A stretch of 40,027 nt of DNA, taken from the NCBI GenBank assembly GCA_025463875.1, contig JAODBI010000081.1, positions 1 through 40,027 on the forward strand, given 5' to 3'. The translations under genes were made by a program, and so were the position numbers. The notes beneath the pieces were generated by a model, which saw only the letters and a list, made by a program, of their open reading frames with translations, made no database searches and was not told the DNA's origin. Origin of the DNA: Actinomycetes bacterium. Lineage in GTDB: Bacteria > Actinomycetota > Acidimicrobiia > IMCC26256 > PALSA-610. This document shows positions 12,569-19,769 of this stretch, in pieces. Each line of letters begins with the position of its first letter. Positions within the stretch are counted from its first letter, which is position 1.

Positions 12569-13465
12569 TCATGCGCCGCGCGGCGGTACCTCGGACGGTT
12601 GCGCCTCGAGGAAGCGGCGCGCCGTCAGAACCGATGCGACACCGGGAAGCTCCAGCGCTCCGTCGGTTTCGTACCGCGCCACGGCCGTGTGGACGGTGTC
12701 GCGCAGGCGCGAGCGCGTTGCGTCGTCGAGTCCGTTGAGAAATGCGACGACGGGACCGGCAACCGTCAGGTTCCGCGTCCACCATGCGTCGAACGACGGT
12801 GCGCGCAACGGCGCGGCGACGCGCTCGATGGTGACGTCGGTGAAGTGCGCGTCGACGAACAGCTGCCGGAGAACGCCCGCGTCCGACAAGGCGAACGGAC
12901 CGGGGACGCCGGGCGGAGGCACGACGACTCCCGTGACCTCGGTGATGGTGTCGAGCAGCAGACCGAGCCAGGGATTGTCCTGGCGCGGACCCCACACCGC
13001 GATCGCCACGCGGCCCGCCGGCCGCAGGACCCGATGCATCTCACGCGCCGCGCGCTTCGGCTCGAGCGCAAACATCATCCCCTCGCGGGAGAGCACGACG
13101 TCGTAGGAGCCGTCGGACTCCGCGATGTCCTCGAGGTCGAGCACTTTGGTGCTGACGTTGCGCACGCCGCGCTCCTCGGCGCGCCGGCGGGCGATGTCGA
13201 CCATGCCGGCGACGACGTCGGAGAGCACGACCTCGCCGTCCGGGCCGAGCCGTTCCGCCGCCGCGAGCCCGGCGCCGCCGGGGCCGCACGCGAGCTCGAG
13301 CAGACGATCGCCCGGACGTAGGTCGACCGAGTCGAGCATGCGCTCGGTGATCGCGGCGGCCCGCCGGTCGACGTCATCGGCGTTGGCTCCCCACGCGGTC
13401 GCCACGCCAGCCCACATCCCGTGGATGAACGTCCGCACTTCGTCGTCGGCACGCGCGTCCGTCAT
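12569..13465 (-). CDS. Class I SAM-dependent methyltransferase (Methyltransf_11/25 type)
   Basis: This 298-residue protein has a Rossmann-type methyltransferase core. Motif I is RLLELACGPGGAGLAAAERL, the second acidic strand is EVVLSDVVAGMVDIAR, and motif post-II is KVLDLEDIAESDGSYDVVLSREGMMF, followed by RVLRPAGRVAIAVWG. A helical C-terminal part of about 110 residues is probably a substrate lid. The substrate is unknown. The ATG at 13465 follows GAGGAGCGATC, so the longer track ORF is rejected. It is divergent from a TetR gene with only 60 bp between starts, and that gap carries a consensus TTGACA and a palindrome over the -10 region. TetR control is therefore likely. The crotonase gene follows. 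Confidence 0.88.
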   Translation of the reverse strand: MTDARADDEVRTFIHGMWAGVATAWGANADDVDRRAAAITERMLDSVDLRPGDRLLELACGPGGAGLAAAERLGPDGEVVLSDVVAGMVDIARRRAEERGVRNVSTKVLDLEDIAESDGSYDVVLSREGMMFALEPKRAAREMHRVLRPAGRVAIAVWGPRQDNPWLGLLLDTITEVTGVVVPPPGVPGPFALSDAGVLRQLFVDAHFTDVTIERVAAPLRAPSFDAWWTRNLTVAGPVVAFLNGLDDATRSRLRDTVHTAVARYETDGALELPGVASVLTARRFLEAQPSEVPPRGA

Positions 13466-13485
13466 GATCGCTCCTCGCTTTTTAC

Positions 13486-13525
13486 TACTCGATACGAGTA
13501 TTGAATTCTCGGTTAGGGTTGTCAA
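13486..13525 (-). promoter_or_regulatory. Methyltransferase promoter overlapped by a TetR-type palindrome
   Basis: On the minus strand TTGACA (13520-13525) is followed after exactly 17 bp by AATACT (13497-13502), a good -35/-10 pair for the methyltransferase gene. The palindrome TACTCG-ATA-CGAGTA (13486-13500) covers the -10 and the presumed start point. On the plus strand TAGGGT lies six nucleotides before the GTG of the tetR gene and would produce a leaderless tetR message. Both promoters thus share the palindrome. Repressor binding is inferred, not shown. Confidence 0.65.
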
Positions 13526-14179
13526 GTGGCAGACGCGCAAGGATCTCGGCGTACCTACAACTCGCCCCGGCGCCGGCAACAGGCGGCTGCGACGCGCAAA
13601 GCCATCCTCGAAGCCGCCGAGCGGCTCTTCGTCCGCGACGGCTACCCGGCAACGACCATGGAAGCGATCGCCGCGGAAGCGGGCGTGTCGTTGAAGACGG
13701 CGTACCTGCCGTTCACGACCAAGAGTGGGCTGCTCCGAGCGCTATGGGATCTCCGACTCAAGGGGGACGCGCAGGACGCGCCCGTCGCGCAACACGAGTG
13801 GTTCCGCGAGGTCATGCAGGAACGCGACCCGGTCCGGAAACTGGAGCTCAACGCCCGCAACTCCCGCGCCGCCAAGGCGCGCATCGGCGCGATGTTCAAG
13901 GTGATCCGCGGCGCGGCCGAGATCGACGCCGACTGCGATGCGCTGTGGCAGCTGATCCAGGACGACTTCCACGCGAATCAGCGCACCATCGTCGACTCAC
14001 TGCACCGTGACGGCGCCCTTCGGCCGGGCCTCGGCGTGACACGCGGCACCGACCTTCTCTGGACGCTCAACCACCCGGATGTGTGGATGTTGCTCGTAGG
14101 CGAACGGGGTTGGTCACCGCGCGCCTACGAAACCTGGCTCGCGCATTCCAGCTGCGCGCAACTGCTCGGAACCGAGTGA
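13526..14179 (+). CDS. TetR/AcrR-family transcriptional regulator
   Basis: This 217-residue regulator has an N-terminal DNA-binding domain (about residues 17-65). The first helix is RRQQAAATRKAILEAAERLFVRDGY, followed by the helix-turn-helix TTMEAIAAEAGVSLKTAYLPFTTKSGLLRALWD. The remaining about 150 residues form the ligand-binding and dimerisation helices, different for each family member. The GTG at 13526 has no Shine-Dalgarno sequence but is six nucleotides downstream of a TAnnnT-type -10, so translation may be leaderless. It is divergent from the methyltransferase gene and probably represses it through the palindrome in the 60-bp gap. The ligand is unknown. Confidence 0.88.
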   Translation: MADAQGSRRTYNSPRRRQQAAATRKAILEAAERLFVRDGYPATTMEAIAAEAGVSLKTAYLPFTTKSGLLRALWDLRLKGDAQDAPVAQHEWFREVMQERDPVRKLELNARNSRAAKARIGAMFKVIRGAAEIDADCDALWQLIQDDFHANQRTIVDSLHRDGALRPGLGVTRGTDLLWTLNHPDVWMLLVGERGWSPRAYETWLAHSSCAQLLGTE

Positions 14180-14200: not shown

Positions 14201-14776
14201 TCATCCCGCGGCGCGGCGCGGCGAACGACGAGTCAATCCGGCGAAGCTGCGCATGGCGGCGATGAGCAGCTCCGGTTCGGGATGCGGCACGAGGTAGTGC
14301 GAGTACGCAAGCCGTATGAAGACCTCGGCGGCCTGTTCGCGCGACAAGCCTCCCGCGCGGACAGCGGGCACTTGGGTGAAGTCGTCGCCGAGGAGCTGCA
14401 CGAGCGCGTGGACCTGGGGCTCGAGCGCCTCGGCGAGCGACCGCAGCGCGAACGCGGGATCGACACCGATCGCTTCGGCGCCGAGTGAATCGTCGAGATA
14501 CGTCACGAGGTACCGCAGCGCGGCGTCCAGTCGGCGCGCCGGCGAACGATGCGCCTCGACCGCGGCTCGCAACCCCACGTCGAAGATCCGCGTTTCGTAG
14601 TTGGCGATCGCGCCCAGCAGATCGTCCTTGGTCGGAAACCACCGGTAGAGCGTCGGCCGCGACACGCCGGCTGCCGCCGCGACCGCCGACAACGTCAGGT
14701 TTCCCGGACCCCGCGCGAGGATTGCCCGCCTCGCCGCCGCAAGGATGAGTTCTCCGCTGGTGGGGCTCGCGGTCAC
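14201..14776 (-). CDS. TetR-family regulator co-transcribed with a cytochrome P450
   Basis: This regulator of about 191 residues begins its DNA-binding domain at GELILAAARRAILARGPGNLTLSAVAAAAG. The recognition helix is VSRPTLYRWFPTKDDLLGAIANYE. A helical effector domain follows, with a basic C-terminus. I start at GTG 14776, ten nucleotides after the P450 stop codon; the larger track ORF runs through the P450 gene in another frame. There is no evident Shine-Dalgarno sequence, so translation is likely coupled to the P450. The arrangement P450-tetR under one promoter suggests autoregulation through the palindrome at 16075-16093. Confidence 0.87.
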   Translation of the reverse strand: MTASPTSGELILAAARRAILARGPGNLTLSAVAAAAGVSRPTLYRWFPTKDDLLGAIANYETRIFDVGLRAAVEAHRSPARRLDAALRYLVTYLDDSLGAEAIGVDPAFALRSLAEALEPQVHALVQLLGDDFTQVPAVRAGGLSREQAAEVFIRLAYSHYLVPHPEPELLIAAMRSFAGLTRRSPRRAAG

Positions 14777-14786
14777 CGGAGAACCG

Positions 14787-16019
14787 CTACTGATCAGTGC
14801 GGCGGTTGAACACCATCGGGAAGTGGTCGATGGAACGGATCGCCGGCGTGTACACGAGCGTGTGGCCGGGCGCGACCGAGTAGTCCGGGATTCGGCGATG
14901 CCACTCGCGCAGCGCGATCCGCAGTTCCTGACGCGCGAGATGCGAACCGAGGCAGCGGTGCACGCCACCACCGAACGCGAGGTGGCGGTTGGGCTGGCGG
15001 TCGAAGTCGACGTCGTCGGGCGCGCTGAACTCGGCGGGATCGGTGTTCGCCGAGCTCAAGATGATCGACACCTGGTTGCCGGAATGGATGGGACAGCCGG
15101 CAAGGGTCGTATCGCGCGTTGCCACCCGCGCGACTCCGAGCACCGGTGTCTCCCAACGCAGCATCTCCTCGACCGCGGCGGGTATCAGCGCGGGATCGTC
15201 GACGAGGCGTTGGCGCTGCTCCGGATGCTGCGCGAGGTAGGAGAACATGCAGTCCAGCGTCGCGGTGACCGTGTCGAGCCCAGCAATGAGAAAGAGAAAA
15301 CAGATATCGAGGATCTCGGTCCGAGCGAGCTTCTCGCCCTCGACCTCGACATCGAGGAACCGGCTCAGGAGATCGTCGCGCCGCTCGGCCTCGCGCTCGT
15401 CGAGCACTTCTTCGAAGTACTCATAGATCGACTCCGCGGTCTTGCGCTGATACTCGTTCATCGTGTCGCTGCCGTAGGGCGCGCCGGTCACCTGGTCGGG
15501 CCGGATGATGCCGTCCTTCATCTCGATGAACCGAGGGAGCTCGTCGAGCGGCAGACCGAGCAGGGTGAGGAAGACGAGCGACGGGAACGGCACCGAGAAC
15601 TCGCGTGCGAAGTCGATGCCGTCGCGATCGACGAACTGGTCGATGAGCTCATTGGCGAGCGCGGTGACCGGCTCGGCGATCAACGCCATCTCGCGCGGCG
15701 CGAACACGGGGTCGAGGATCTTGCGGTACTTCTTGTGGTCGGGGGGATCGATCTGCAGTGGGATCAGCGGGCGCACATTTTTCAGGTCGACCGCCGACAT
15801 GTTCGACGAGAACGTTTCCGGATCGCGAAAGATCTCTTCGATCTCGGCCCGGCGCGTCACGACGACGCCCACGCCGACACCTTCGACCGGCATGACCGGC
15901 ACGCTGTCGCGCAGCGCGGCGAACAACGGCTGCGGATGCGCGGCCATCTCCGGATCCATCGCGGCGAACGGGTTGCCCTCGCTCGGCGCGTCGTCGTCTA
16001 CGCGCATTTCGTCCGCCAT
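14787..16019 (-). CDS. Cytochrome P450
   Basis: This is a complete 410-residue soluble bacterial P450. The C-helix segment IDPPDHKKYRKILDPVF lies at about 90-106. The I-helix oxygen-activation motif AGLDTVT is at 246-252, the ExxR motif EMLR at 285-288, and the heme-binding loop FGGGVHRCLG at 349-358 with Cys356 as thiolate ligand. It would hydroxylate an unidentified, probably hydrophobic substrate and needs a separate ferredoxin and reductase, neither of which is encoded nearby. The ATG at 16019 follows CGGAGGCAATCG; the longer track ORF is rejected. It heads an operon with tetR and has a clear inverted repeat upstream. Confidence 0.95.
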   Translation of the reverse strand: MADEMRVDDDAPSEGNPFAAMDPEMAAHPQPLFAALRDSVPVMPVEGVGVGVVVTRRAEIEEIFRDPETFSSNMSAVDLKNVRPLIPLQIDPPDHKKYRKILDPVFAPREMALIAEPVTALANELIDQFVDRDGIDFAREFSVPFPSLVFLTLLGLPLDELPRFIEMKDGIIRPDQVTGAPYGSDTMNEYQRKTAESIYEYFEEVLDEREAERRDDLLSRFLDVEVEGEKLARTEILDICFLFLIAGLDTVTATLDCMFSYLAQHPEQRQRLVDDPALIPAAVEEMLRWETPVLGVARVATRDTTLAGCPIHSGNQVSIILSSANTDPAEFSAPDDVDFDRQPNRHLAFGGGVHRCLGSHLARQELRIALREWHRRIPDYSVAPGHTLVYTPAIRSIDHFPMVFNRRTDQ

Positions 16020-16113: not shown

Positions 16114-16950
16114 TCAGGGCGCCGGCGTCGAGGTGGCGGCGATGATCTGGTCGAGGACCGACTGGTCCGGCAAGGGCGGAGCCTCGAGGGTCGGGAACTG
16201 CCGGACCATGTTGAACGCGCGCTCGATGTGCTCACCCTCGATCACCGGAGTGTGACAGGCGGCGATCGTGGTGATGTCGAGGTTCTGCGTGGTGTCGACA
16301 TACGCGCCGTACTTGACCGGATCGAGCATCGTCAGCCAAGGACTCACCGCACCGAGCGCGAAGAGATGCATGCCGAACTGCCAGAACTCGGGATCGAGAT
16401 CGGCAATCCCCATCTTCGGATCCGGCAGCGGTGTCGCGAAGGTGTCGACCGCCCAGTACACGCCGGTGGTCGGGTCGAAGAGCCCACGAGTCGTCGGCGA
16501 GTCGAACACCGGTGGGCGGGGTGCGTGCAGTGTCCGGTCGCCGACGTCGAACGCATCTCCGTGCATGACCCACTGGCAACGCTCGAGCGGGAACTCGAAG
16601 CAATTGGTGTGCCGTTCGATCATCGCCCAGTTGCAAACGAGCTGCGCGTTCGGGCACGCGGTCATTGCCTCGTCGAGGTTGCCGGTGTGATCCACGTCGT
16701 CGTGCGACAGGAAGATCCAACGCACATCGTTCGGTTCGACGAGCGCGAAGACGTCTTCGAGCCACTGCTTGCGATTCGCAGGCGTGCCCGTGTCGACGAT
16801 CACCGGCTCTTTGCCCAGAATGACCATCGAGTTGATGTAGACGAACAACGGCTGCCCGAGGGCCGGCTGCACCTGATGGATCACGAACGTGTCCTTCGCG
16901 ACCTTCGTCGGTGGCACGTACGTCGTCGGTGCGATTGGTGTGAACGTCAT
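16114..16950 (-). CDS. Metallo-beta-lactamase-fold protein, ODP/flavodiiron-like
   Basis: This 278-residue protein has an MBL-type sandwich with EPVIVDTGTPANRKQWLEDV and the metal motif IFLSHDDVDHTGNLDEA (H83-x-D85-x-D87-H88). A later ligand Asp lies in VYWAVDTFAT (169) and a C-terminal His in IAACHTPVIEG (233). The layout resembles the oxygen-binding diiron (ODP) domain of flavodiiron proteins, whose motif is HxExDH. At the position of the middle His (normally APMLHWPDS) the sequence reads APRPPVFDS, so that ligand appears absent. There is no flavodoxin domain. The function is unknown, possibly redox or hydrolytic. The ATG follows GGGGGTAGCTG. Confidence 0.82.
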   Translation of the reverse strand: MTFTPIAPTTYVPPTKVAKDTFVIHQVQPALGQPLFVYINSMVILGKEPVIVDTGTPANRKQWLEDVFALVEPNDVRWIFLSHDDVDHTGNLDEAMTACPNAQLVCNWAMIERHTNCFEFPLERCQWVMHGDAFDVGDRTLHAPRPPVFDSPTTRGLFDPTTGVYWAVDTFATPLPDPKMGIADLDPEFWQFGMHLFALGAVSPWLTMLDPVKYGAYVDTTQNLDITTIAACHTPVIEGEHIERAFNMVRQFPTLEAPPLPDQSVLDQIIAATSTPAP

Positions 16951-17071: not shown

Positions 17072-17821
17072 TCAGAGCGGAAGCGGGTGGCTGAGCACAC
17101 CGGTGCCCGGTAAGCGTCCGGAAAGCGTGCGTACGAACTCGATGGCGTCGATAACGACGCGCTCGCCGTCGACACCCTGACTGACCTGACTGACCTGACT
17201 GAATTTTCCGCCGGCCGGACCGTCGAGGACGAGCTCGAACGGTTCGCCGTGGATCGATGCCCATTCGGCGACGATGTCGGCAACGAGCACGCCGTCGTGG
17301 TCGGCCGTCAGCTCCATGTCGCGCCCGGTCGCAACGCAGATGTCGATGCGGTGCGCCCACACATCGCGCGTGAAACCGACGTCGAGGAGATACTTGAGCG
17401 GCGCCCAACCGATCGGCGGTCCGAACGGCAGGGGCAGGTAACGAACGGGCGGCGGCGTTCCCCAACGGCCCTTCACGGCTTTCGGACCGACGGTCGAGAG
17501 CTGTTCCACGATCTCCTCGTTCGAGAGGTGATCCCGCTCCCGGATCTGCAACTCGTTCAGACCGTCGACCCAGTGGTGCGAGTCGATCTGCTTGTTGAGC
17601 GGAATCCCGCGGCGGAGCTGATGCAGGAACTGCGGGACGGACGCCTGGGCGTCACCGGAACCGAGGATGTGCAACGCAACCTTGCGCACGTCCCAGCCGG
17701 TGCAGTCGGTCGGCCGTGCCCACTCGTCGGCATTCAATGCGCGCATCAGGTCGGCGAAGCGCCGGAACTCCTCTTCGGCGAGCACCCGGGCCTCGGGTCG
17801 TTTGATCCTCTCGGCAATCAT
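17072..17821 (-). CDS. Mycothiol-dependent maleylpyruvate isomerase-like (DinB-fold) protein
   Basis: This 249-residue protein begins with a DinB-like four-helix bundle, DLMRALNADEWARPTDCTGWDVRKVALHILGSGDA, in which the Trp and His match the metal site of actinobacterial mycothiol-dependent enzymes. Later come FTRDVWAHRIDICVATG, another family hallmark, and a C-terminal SCP2-like tail (GEPFELVLDG...VVIDAIEFVRTLSGR). Such enzymes isomerise or conjugate electrophiles with mycothiol; the substrate here is unknown. The ATG overlaps the upstream tetR stop by four nucleotides (ATGA). A 9-bp repeat in the gene adds the in-frame residues SQVSQVSQ near residue 210. Confidence 0.87.
   Translation of the reverse strand: MIAERIKRPEARVLAEEEFRRFADLMRALNADEWARPTDCTGWDVRKVALHILGSGDAQASVPQFLHQLRRGIPLNKQIDSHHWVDGLNELQIRERDHLSNEEIVEQLSTVGPKAVKGRWGTPPPVRYLPLPFGPPIGWAPLKYLLDVGFTRDVWAHRIDICVATGRDMELTADHDGVLVADIVAEWASIHGEPFELVLDGPAGGKFSQVSQVSQGVDGERVVIDAIEFVRTLSGRLPGTGVLSHPLPL
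17176..17202. repeat. In-gene 9-bp triplet repeat
   Basis: CCTGACTGA occurs three times in direct succession inside the mycothiol-enzyme gene. Because the unit is three codons it keeps the frame and writes SQVSQVSQ in the protein. It lies in a probable surface loop between the DinB bundle and the C-terminal domain, so copy-number slippage could be tolerated. Confidence 0.7.
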
Positions 17822-18399
17822 CGACGTTTCCTCCGTTTCGGTTCGTCCAGGTACATGTCTGCGAGTCGGTTGAGGTGGCGGATCCAGCGGTGGCCGCCGG
17901 GGTCGTTGCTGATCTGCGCGTCGACGAGGCCGGCCACCATCGCAATGAAACAGTCGACGTCGGCCTGCGACTCGAGGCCCGCCGCGTGCAGCAGTTCGAT
18001 CGCGCGGTTCAAGAAGACCTGTGCGGGCTGGTACGACTCGGCCGACGGCTCGAAACCGGGGATTTGGCGCTGGAACAACAGCACGTAGCGCGGGACGTCC
18101 TCGACGCTGAACCCGATGAACGCCTGCATGAACGACTTCACCGCGGCGCGCGGATCACGGGGAAGCTTCACCGCCTCGAGGCGCGCGAGCAGTTGGCGGT
18201 TGCCGTCGGCGAACATCGAGTCGTAGAGCGCGTGCTTCGAGTCGAAGTACTCGTACAGCGACGGTTGGCGGATGCCCACCTCGCGGGCGAGCGCTCGGAG
18301 CGAGACGCCGCCGACGCCGTGCTCGCCGGAGAGCCGCCACGCGGCGGCGACGATCGATGCCACCCGTTCCTCGCGGCGCTCCGCAACTCTTCCTATCAT
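17818..18399 (-). CDS. TetR-family regulator, leaderless and probably autoregulated
   Basis: This 193-residue TetR protein has the DNA-binding helices REERVASIVAAAWRLSGEHG and VSLRALAREVGIRQPSLYEYFDSKHALYDSMF. They are followed by a helical effector domain (VEDVPRYVLLFQRQIPGFEPS) and a strongly basic end. The ATG at 18399 lies eight nucleotides after a TAATAT -10 box, leaving essentially no untranslated leader and no Shine-Dalgarno sequence. Its first codons are themselves part of an 18-bp inverted-repeat arm. The gene overlaps the mycothiol-dependent enzyme gene by four bases, so the pair forms an operon. The palindrome also faces the divergent GH4 gene. Confidence 0.92.
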   Translation of the reverse strand: MIGRVAERREERVASIVAAAWRLSGEHGVGGVSLRALAREVGIRQPSLYEYFDSKHALYDSMFADGNRQLLARLEAVKLPRDPRAAVKSFMQAFIGFSVEDVPRYVLLFQRQIPGFEPSAESYQPAQVFLNRAIELLHAAGLESQADVDCFIAMVAGLVDAQISNDPGGHRWIRHLNRLADMYLDEPKRRKRR

Positions 18400-18435
18400 C
18401 GATAGGGATATTACCTATCGATGATAGGAAGTCAA
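18389..18435 (-). promoter_or_regulatory. TetR promoter embedded in a perfect 18-bp inverted repeat
   Basis: CTTCCTATCATCGATAGG and its exact inverse flank the 7-bp spacer GATATTA. On the minus strand the elements are TTGACT (18430-18435, -35), 16 bp occupied by the distal arm, and TAATAT (18408-18413, -10, in the spacer). Eight bases follow to the ATG at 18399, which lies in the proximal arm. Each arm is itself nearly palindromic (CTATC-ATC-GATAG), so two repressor dimers could bind. Bound repressor would cover the entire core promoter and the start codon. Confidence 0.85.
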
Positions 18436-18488
18436 CGGGTTTTCGGAACGGACGACCTCACCGCCGGTTGCACAGCTAGTTTTCGCTG

Positions 18489-19769
18489 ATGCGGGAGGCG
18501 CCGACGATCGTGCTCATCGGTGCGGGGAGCACGTCGTTCGGGCTCACGACGCTGCACGACCTCTACGCCGATCCGGTGTTCACGGGCGCCATGGTTCGCC
18601 TCGTCGATCTCGAGCCCGCGCCGCTGGAACGCATGTCGCAGCTCGCCGCCGCACTCGAAGCAGAGACCGGGCGAGGGATCACCGTGGAGCGCCACACCGA
18701 TCGTGTCGACGCGTTGCCGGGAGCAGACGCGGTGGTCGTGTCCGTCGAGGTCGATCGCGTCAATCGTTGGTTGCTCGACTTCGAGATCCCGCGCCGGCAC
18801 GGCGTCGACCACATCTACGGCGAGAACGGCGGCCCGGGCGGACTCTCGCACGCACTGCGGACGGTTCCGCTCGTCGCGGCGATCGCGCGCGACGTCGAGC
18901 GTCTTGCCCCCGACGCGTTGTTCGTCAACTTCACCAACCCCGAGGGACGCATCTGCACGGCATTTCGCCGCCATCTCGATCAGCCGATCGTCGGCTTGTG
19001 TCACGAGGTGAAGATCGCCAACGACCGCTTCTCACGGCTCCTCGGACGGCGCATCGAGTCGCGCGCCGCCGGGCTCAATCACTTCACGGTTCTCCTGGAA
19101 GCCTGGGATCGCGAGACGGGTAGCGACGTCACGGCGCAACTGCACGACGCCGTCGACGGTCTGGAAGACGGCGACGGCGAGACGTTCGCGTTCGTGAAGC
19201 ATCTCCACGACCGCTTCGGCGCGATCGTCGCGACGAGCGACAGCCACGCGGGCGAATACTTCCGGTCGGCGACCGAGTACACCGAGCCCCTCGACATCGC
19301 CGGCCGTCAACGCGCGATGCGCTCGATGATCGACGGGGTTGTCGGCGCGATCCTCGCGGGCACGTTCGACCTTCCACCCTTCCTGGCGTGGGTGACCGAC
19401 GACGCGTTGCGTCCCATCCTGCGCGCCGCGATCTCGGGCGACTCGGAGCGCGTCGCGTCCGCGATCCTGCCCAACGACGATCTCGTGCCCGCGCTCCCCC
19501 GCGACAGCGCGGTCGAGGTGAGCGCGACCGCGACCGCCGGTGGCGTCATCGGCGATCGGAGCGACGACTTACCGACCGGGATCGCGGGCGCGCTGCACAC
19601 CGAGGTCACGATCCAGCAACTCGTCGCCGACGCGGCCCTGCTCGGTTCGCGCTCCGCCGCGCTCCAGGCGCTCGAGCTCGACCCTGTCGTCAGCTCGGCG
19701 CGCGCCGCCGAATTGATCCTCGCCGACTACGAGGTCGCGCACCGCGACCTCTGGCCCGCGCTGCACTGA
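18489..19769 (+). CDS. Glycoside hydrolase family 4 (NAD-dependent alpha-glucosidase/galactosidase-like)
   Basis: This 426-residue protein is a GH4 enzyme. The Rossmann motif IVLIGAGSTSFGLTTLHDL binds NAD. HIYGENGGPGGLSHALRTVPLV and LFVNFTNPEGRICTAF are substrate-loop motifs, and PIVGLCHEV (Cys) and AAGLNHFTVLLEAWDRETG (His) supply the metal ligands. GH4 enzymes cleave glycosides by a redox-elimination mechanism with NAD and Mn. There is no phosphotransferase gene nearby, which argues against a 6-phospho-glycoside substrate. The ATG lacks a Shine-Dalgarno motif. The gene is divergent from the tetR operator across 89 bp, so co-regulation is possible. The downstream SCO6745-family gene follows after 19 bp. 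Confidence 0.9.
   Translation: MREAPTIVLIGAGSTSFGLTTLHDLYADPVFTGAMVRLVDLEPAPLERMSQLAAALEAETGRGITVERHTDRVDALPGADAVVVSVEVDRVNRWLLDFEIPRRHGVDHIYGENGGPGGLSHALRTVPLVAAIARDVERLAPDALFVNFTNPEGRICTAFRRHLDQPIVGLCHEVKIANDRFSRLLGRRIESRAAGLNHFTVLLEAWDRETGSDVTAQLHDAVDGLEDGDGETFAFVKHLHDRFGAIVATSDSHAGEYFRSATEYTEPLDIAGRQRAMRSMIDGVVGAILAGTFDLPPFLAWVTDDALRPILRAAISGDSERVASAILPNDDLVPALPRDSAVEVSATATAGGVIGDRSDDLPTGIAGALHTEVTIQQLVADAALLGSRSAALQALELDPVVSSARAAELILADYEVAHRDLWPALH

Follow-up and report, generated by a model that had tools for sequence, protein, structure and literature searches.

Here, sequence comparison indicates that the tetR-MDMPI locus is a leaderless, self-repressed operon with twin tet-like operators, and we put the probability of this full mechanism at roughly 85%. 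The window, that is, the whole stretch of DNA that was analysed, comprises 40,027 nt from an uncultured actinobacterium (assembly GCA_025463875.1, contig JAODBI010000081.1, positions 1 to 40,027, forward strand). On its minus strand, a gene for a TetR-family regulator of 193 amino acids (17818 to 18399) is followed by the MDMPI gene (17072 to 17821), whose first 4 bp are shared with the 3' end of tetR; its product is a detoxification-type enzyme, a mycothiol-dependent member of the maleylpyruvate isomerase family. In the proposed mechanism, one TetR-family dimer would bind each of two 15-bp operators, CCTATC-N3-GATAGG, and within each GATAG half-site R35 of the regulator would read the G and Q45 would read the A, like R28 and Q38 of the tetracycline repressor. 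The operators are centred at 18399 and 18421, 22 bp apart; since this is about two helical turns, two dimers could share one face of the DNA. The distal dimer would cover the spacer between the -35 and -10 hexamers, the proximal dimer would lie over the first codons as well as the transcript start, and RNA polymerase would be excluded by both. Binding of a small ligand to the regulator would allow the operon to be transcribed. The transcript is predicted to start at the ATG or at most 1 to 2 nt away from it, which would yield a leaderless mRNA for both the regulator and the mycothiol-dependent enzyme.

The two operators, with 3 bp more at each outer side, make up a perfect 18-7-18 inverted repeat (18389 to 18431), as a sequence-only reading of this DNA had described. 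The arms (18389 to 18406 and 18414 to 18431) are 100% complementary and separated by a 7-nt spacer; about 3e-4 perfect 18-bp arms with a spacer of up to 50 nt are expected per window. A consensus scan of positions 18300 to 18560 returned a single promoter, on the minus strand, and shuffled sequences gave an average of 0.0. The promoter consists of TTGACT (18435 to 18430), a 16-nt spacer, and TAATAT (18413 to 18408), and the minus strand reads TTGACT TCCTATCATCGATAGG TAATAT CCCTATCG ATGATAGGAAG, corresponding to the -35, the 16-nt spacer, the -10, 8 nt, and the start codon. The earlier placement of the -10 hexamer in the repeat spacer, of TTGACT upstream, and of the ATG 8 nt past the -10 inside the other arm agrees with these coordinates. 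In orthologues, TTGAC and TANNNT or close variants are found at the equivalent places. The region scan found no terminator at the repeat. The distal operator (18414 to 18428) fills the spacer between the promoter hexamers, the -10 lies between both operators, and the proximal operator (18392 to 18406) spans both the start codon of tetR and the predicted transcript start; both operators are kept in orthologues. The overlap of the regulator's own operators with its own promoter, together with the covariation between residue 45 and the operator, lends good comparative support to the autorepression that had been predicted.

The same promoter and both operators were found at the same places in nine relatives (55 to 88% identical) from other genera and families, one of them from another class. 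All of the evidence is sequence based and derives in large part from draft assemblies. The operator pair is exact in five of the nine (L081, L084, L085, L086, and L087), and one or both operators are degenerate in L080, L006, L082, and L083. Among 395 genomes of the class, five, counting that of the window, carried the exact twin pattern, each time at an orthologue; a reversed-pattern control gave 0. No recognizable operator or promoter was seen upstream of the Gln-type members L007 and L088, of which L007 has no MDMPI and is located close to a transposase fragment. L082 and L083, both in genome G044, are similar regulator copies, each accompanied by operators and by an MDMPI gene, and may represent a recent duplication or assembly redundancy.

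The tetR ATG (18397 to 18399, minus strand) lies within the proximal operator, the central triplet of which gives ATG or GTG together with the next G. Such a codon is in frame at the equivalent place in six of the nine operator-bearing relatives. Across the family, 36 proximal operators hold ATG or GTG, and in 27 of these the codon is in frame with the regulator and no stop intervenes, compared with an expected one third (binomial p of 4e-7, which overstates the certainty because the homologues are not independent). Seven members (L021, L040, L064, L065, L079, L084, and L085) have no ATG, GTG, or TTG before the helix-turn-helix other than the operator codon. Because of these in-frame codons and sole starts, the leaderless start predicted inside the operator is well supported by comparison.

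In the window itself, only ATG 18399 and GTG 18363 are available as starts, as a stop codon lies in frame 54 nt ahead of residue 13. The same autorepressed operon, with the same operators, could be translated from the GTG at residue 13 (18363 to 18361) behind GAGGA, with a leader of about 36 nt. A GAGG/AGGA sequence does lie 8 to 9 nt upstream of this codon in the window and in L080, as does GAGG in L081, and the TetR_N Pfam domain begins only at residue 16. However, residue 13 is no start codon in L082 to L086, L084 and L085 offer the operator codon alone, and the in-frame share of the operator codon lies well above one third. In addition, residues 2 to 27 form one confident helix in the structural model, which a start at residue 13 would cut. 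We regard the GTG start as unlikely. Leaderless initiation at 18399 appears to be the better reading, since several orthologues have no start codon at residue 13, despite the AGGA-like sequence at GTG 18363. Not every member of the family would be leaderless: L082, L083, and L086 seem to use a later start preceded by a leader.

The MDMPI gene scored above the cut-offs of PF11716 and TIGR03083 (77.6 bits for the latter, against a cut-off of 50). Of 81 homologues, 71 had the gene linked to tetR, with 61 carrying it downstream in the same orientation and 10 divergently, and this linkage and the 4-bp gene overlap support the predicted co-transcription of the pair. In most members with a divergent MDMPI gene, the region between the two genes contains two operators at a distance of 50 bp, as would be expected if both promoters were repressed. 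The distance is exactly 50 bp in L063, L067, L101 to L103, L105, and L106. The neighbours of two members without MDMPI (L085 and L007) are an acyl-CoA thioesterase, a transposase fragment, and a periplasmic binding protein, with no common theme. A gene for a metallo-beta-lactamase-fold protein (ODP-like, assigned by Pfam; 16114 to 16950, minus strand) comes after MDMPI in the window, as do a homologue in G003 and an ODP-like open reading frame in G007, and may be a third operon gene in near relatives only. Among the titles and abstracts retrieved on MDMPI-TetR operons, none described a tetR/MDMPI pair.

Judged solely from the partner enzyme, a compound that reacts with thiols or is linked to mycothiol may act as the inducer, and the earlier idea that the regulator is an electrophile sensor is a reasonable one. 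The companion idea, sensing of a glycosidic compound, was not supported. It had drawn on the divergent GH4 glycosidase-like gene (18489 to 19769, plus strand), which lies outside the conserved module and adjoins the regulator only in the genome of the window and in that of G003, a close relative; GH4 was rejected as the regulator's partner because it is not conserved at the locus. It is also very unlikely that the GH4 gene is the main target of the operators: its start is 57 bp from the repeat, but the gene is missing from the locus in all relatives but one, whereas MDMPI is conserved, and no recognizable GH4 promoter overlaps the operators. The GH4 gene has no evident Shine-Dalgarno sequence and carries TAGTTT shortly before its ATG (18470 to 18489), and it may be leaderless too. 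The surrounding 5 kb hold three TetR-family genes (13526 to 14179, plus strand; 14201 to 14971, minus strand; and 17818 to 18399, minus strand), with a cytochrome P450 gene (14787 to 16235) and a methyltransferase gene (12569 to 13579) between or beside them.

Each 18-bp arm of the repeat holds a perfect 6-3-6 palindrome, CCTATC-ATC-GATAGG or CCTATC-GAT-GATAGG. Thus, the functional unit is the two predicted 15-bp operators and not one long palindrome. The 18-bp arm had been taken as the half-site, which was not borne out; the half-site is CTATC, present within two complete operators. As for the expected recurrence of the 18-bp unit near homologous genes, the 15-bp core is conserved, twice at each locus, while neither the three outer base pairs of the arms nor their exact mirror symmetry is. 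The retention of twin sites in relatives makes side-by-side binding of two dimers, as had been suggested, well supported by comparison. That the regulator reads the 43-bp palindrome as one unit, with the 18-bp arms as half-sites, would suit their perfection in the window but is highly improbable, as each site is already a complete palindrome, single operators exist, relatives have different central triplets in their two sites and arms that are no mirror copies, and the centre-to-centre spacing varies (mostly 22 to 23 bp within the Gln clade and 19 bp elsewhere). That the repeat serves a structural role, as a terminator, a cruciform, or the end of a mobile element, instead of being an operator can be dismissed: it is a perfect inverted repeat at an intergenic boundary, but it lacks the T-run of a terminator, occurs once in the genome, and is tied to a single regulator family, with whose recognition helix it covaries.

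These two sites are the only exact matches to CTATCN3GATAG in the 4.6-Mb assembly. With one to two mismatches, 25 matches were found against 30 for the control; this is the control rate, and no wider regulon was seen assembly-wide.

The N terminus of the window regulator matched PF00440 (TetR_N) from residue 16 at 48.4 bits (cut-off, 24; 8e-13). No C-terminal Pfam domain was matched, and TetR_C_33 was matched in 36 of 56 relatives. The model (pLDDT of 97) predicts nine helices in an all-helical fold with a C-terminal ligand/dimer domain, consistent with TetR-family structures. The best hits of a fold search were generic TetR-family structures at TM scores of 0.5 to 0.8 (Bacillus cereus 1zk8, FasR, PfmR, Rv1816, and SCO4313), and the search gave no usable clue to the ligand.

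The helix-turn-helix, with the recognition helix R44-Q45-P46-S47-L48-Y49, aligned without gaps to those of tetracycline repressors at a numbering offset of 7. We take R35, Q45, P46, S47, Y49, and K55 to correspond to R28, Q38, P39, T40, Y42, and K48 of TetR. The equivalents of R28, Q38, P39, Y42, and K48 are thus retained in the window regulator. In the TetR-tetO crystal, R28 and Q38 are the sole side chains that form hydrogen bonds with bases, at G+2 and A+3 of the GATAG half-site (PMC7102968), and TetR uses a five-base CTAT/ATAG spacing (PMC2723105). The window operators carry exactly GATAG half-sites with this same spacing. Like tetO1 and tetO2 of Tn10 and Tn1721, which have CTATC/GATAG half-sites at equal spacing, the two exact sites of the window lie as a pair over the promoter. 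By sequence, the tetracycline repressor shares its operator code with the window locus. Unlike TetR proper, however, the window regulator scored 35.8 bits against a cut-off of 265 in the TetR equivalog model, its ligand domain is different, and its partner is MDMPI in the same operon; the locus has no tetA, the divergent gene being GH4.

Leaderless, self-repressing TetR-family operons are already known, with AcuR and the tetR gene of Tn1721 as the cases named in PMC3017554. There, tetR of Tn1721 is described as leaderless, citing Klock and Hillen 1986. AcuR of Rhodobacter sphaeroides is a TetR-family regulator encoded by the first gene of a leaderless operon, with an operator that overlaps the promoter, and its self-repression is lifted by a small molecule (PMC3017554). 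The window locus is predicted to share the leaderless first gene, the promoter-overlapping operator, and the self-repression, but AcuR has one operator, TAATAGAC-N6-GTCTATTA, and other partner genes. The actinobacterial TetR-type regulator AmtR of Corynebacterium glutamicum likewise has Gln at the Q38 equivalent, Q53, which reads the A of the CTAT half-site (PMC2723105); its spacer is six instead of five, it shows no autoregulation, and it serves nitrogen control. Compared with actinobacterial leaderless genes (PMC4633059), the start codon in the window is additionally part of the repressor's predicted binding site. The value added by the locus lies in a natural record of operator switching and in an operator-embedded start codon across a family. 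A widespread, uncharacterised pair of TetR and mycothiol-dependent enzyme gains a definite predicted operator and start site, which opens a direct way to look for its inducer and regulon.

Covariation between residue 45 and the operator was analysed in 67 homologues, 43 of which had an unambiguous called operator; L051, which carries both cores, was set aside. Gln at residue 45 went with the core ATC-N3-GAT in 13 of 13 members. Ala, Pro, or another residue went with AAC-N3-GTT in 30 of 30, and with nine further non-Gln members in 39 of 39. On a maximum-likelihood tree computed without the helix columns, residue 45 and the operator core each changed three times and concordantly, with two of the changes on well-supported branches. 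The independent-pairs test fell short of significance, which it cannot reach because the independent switches are too few. The position that switches in the TetR-MDMPI family, +3, is also the Q38 contact in the TetR-tetO crystal. The family serves as a natural experiment on the TetR recognition code, in which a single residue and a single base pair have shifted in concert at a crystallographic contact. With the terms tried, no literature on recognition-helix/operator covariation in TetR families was found.

On balance, we lean toward a picture in which the binding site of this family doubles as its own start codon and the DNA target has switched several times through coupled changes at residue 45 (Gln versus Ala/Pro) and operator position 3 (T versus A), with the spacing moving between 19 and 22 bp. 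Where the binding site doubles as the start codon, any change of DNA target would also have to preserve the first codons. Paired operators at 19 bp are seen in the non-Gln members L050, L058, L074 to L076, L098, and L112, where spacing differs together with specificity. The clearest of the changes on the tree is that of L089, from the genus of the window, which falls within the Gln clade yet has Pro at residue 45; its operator is CTAAC-GAT-GTTAG, CTAACGATGTTAG.
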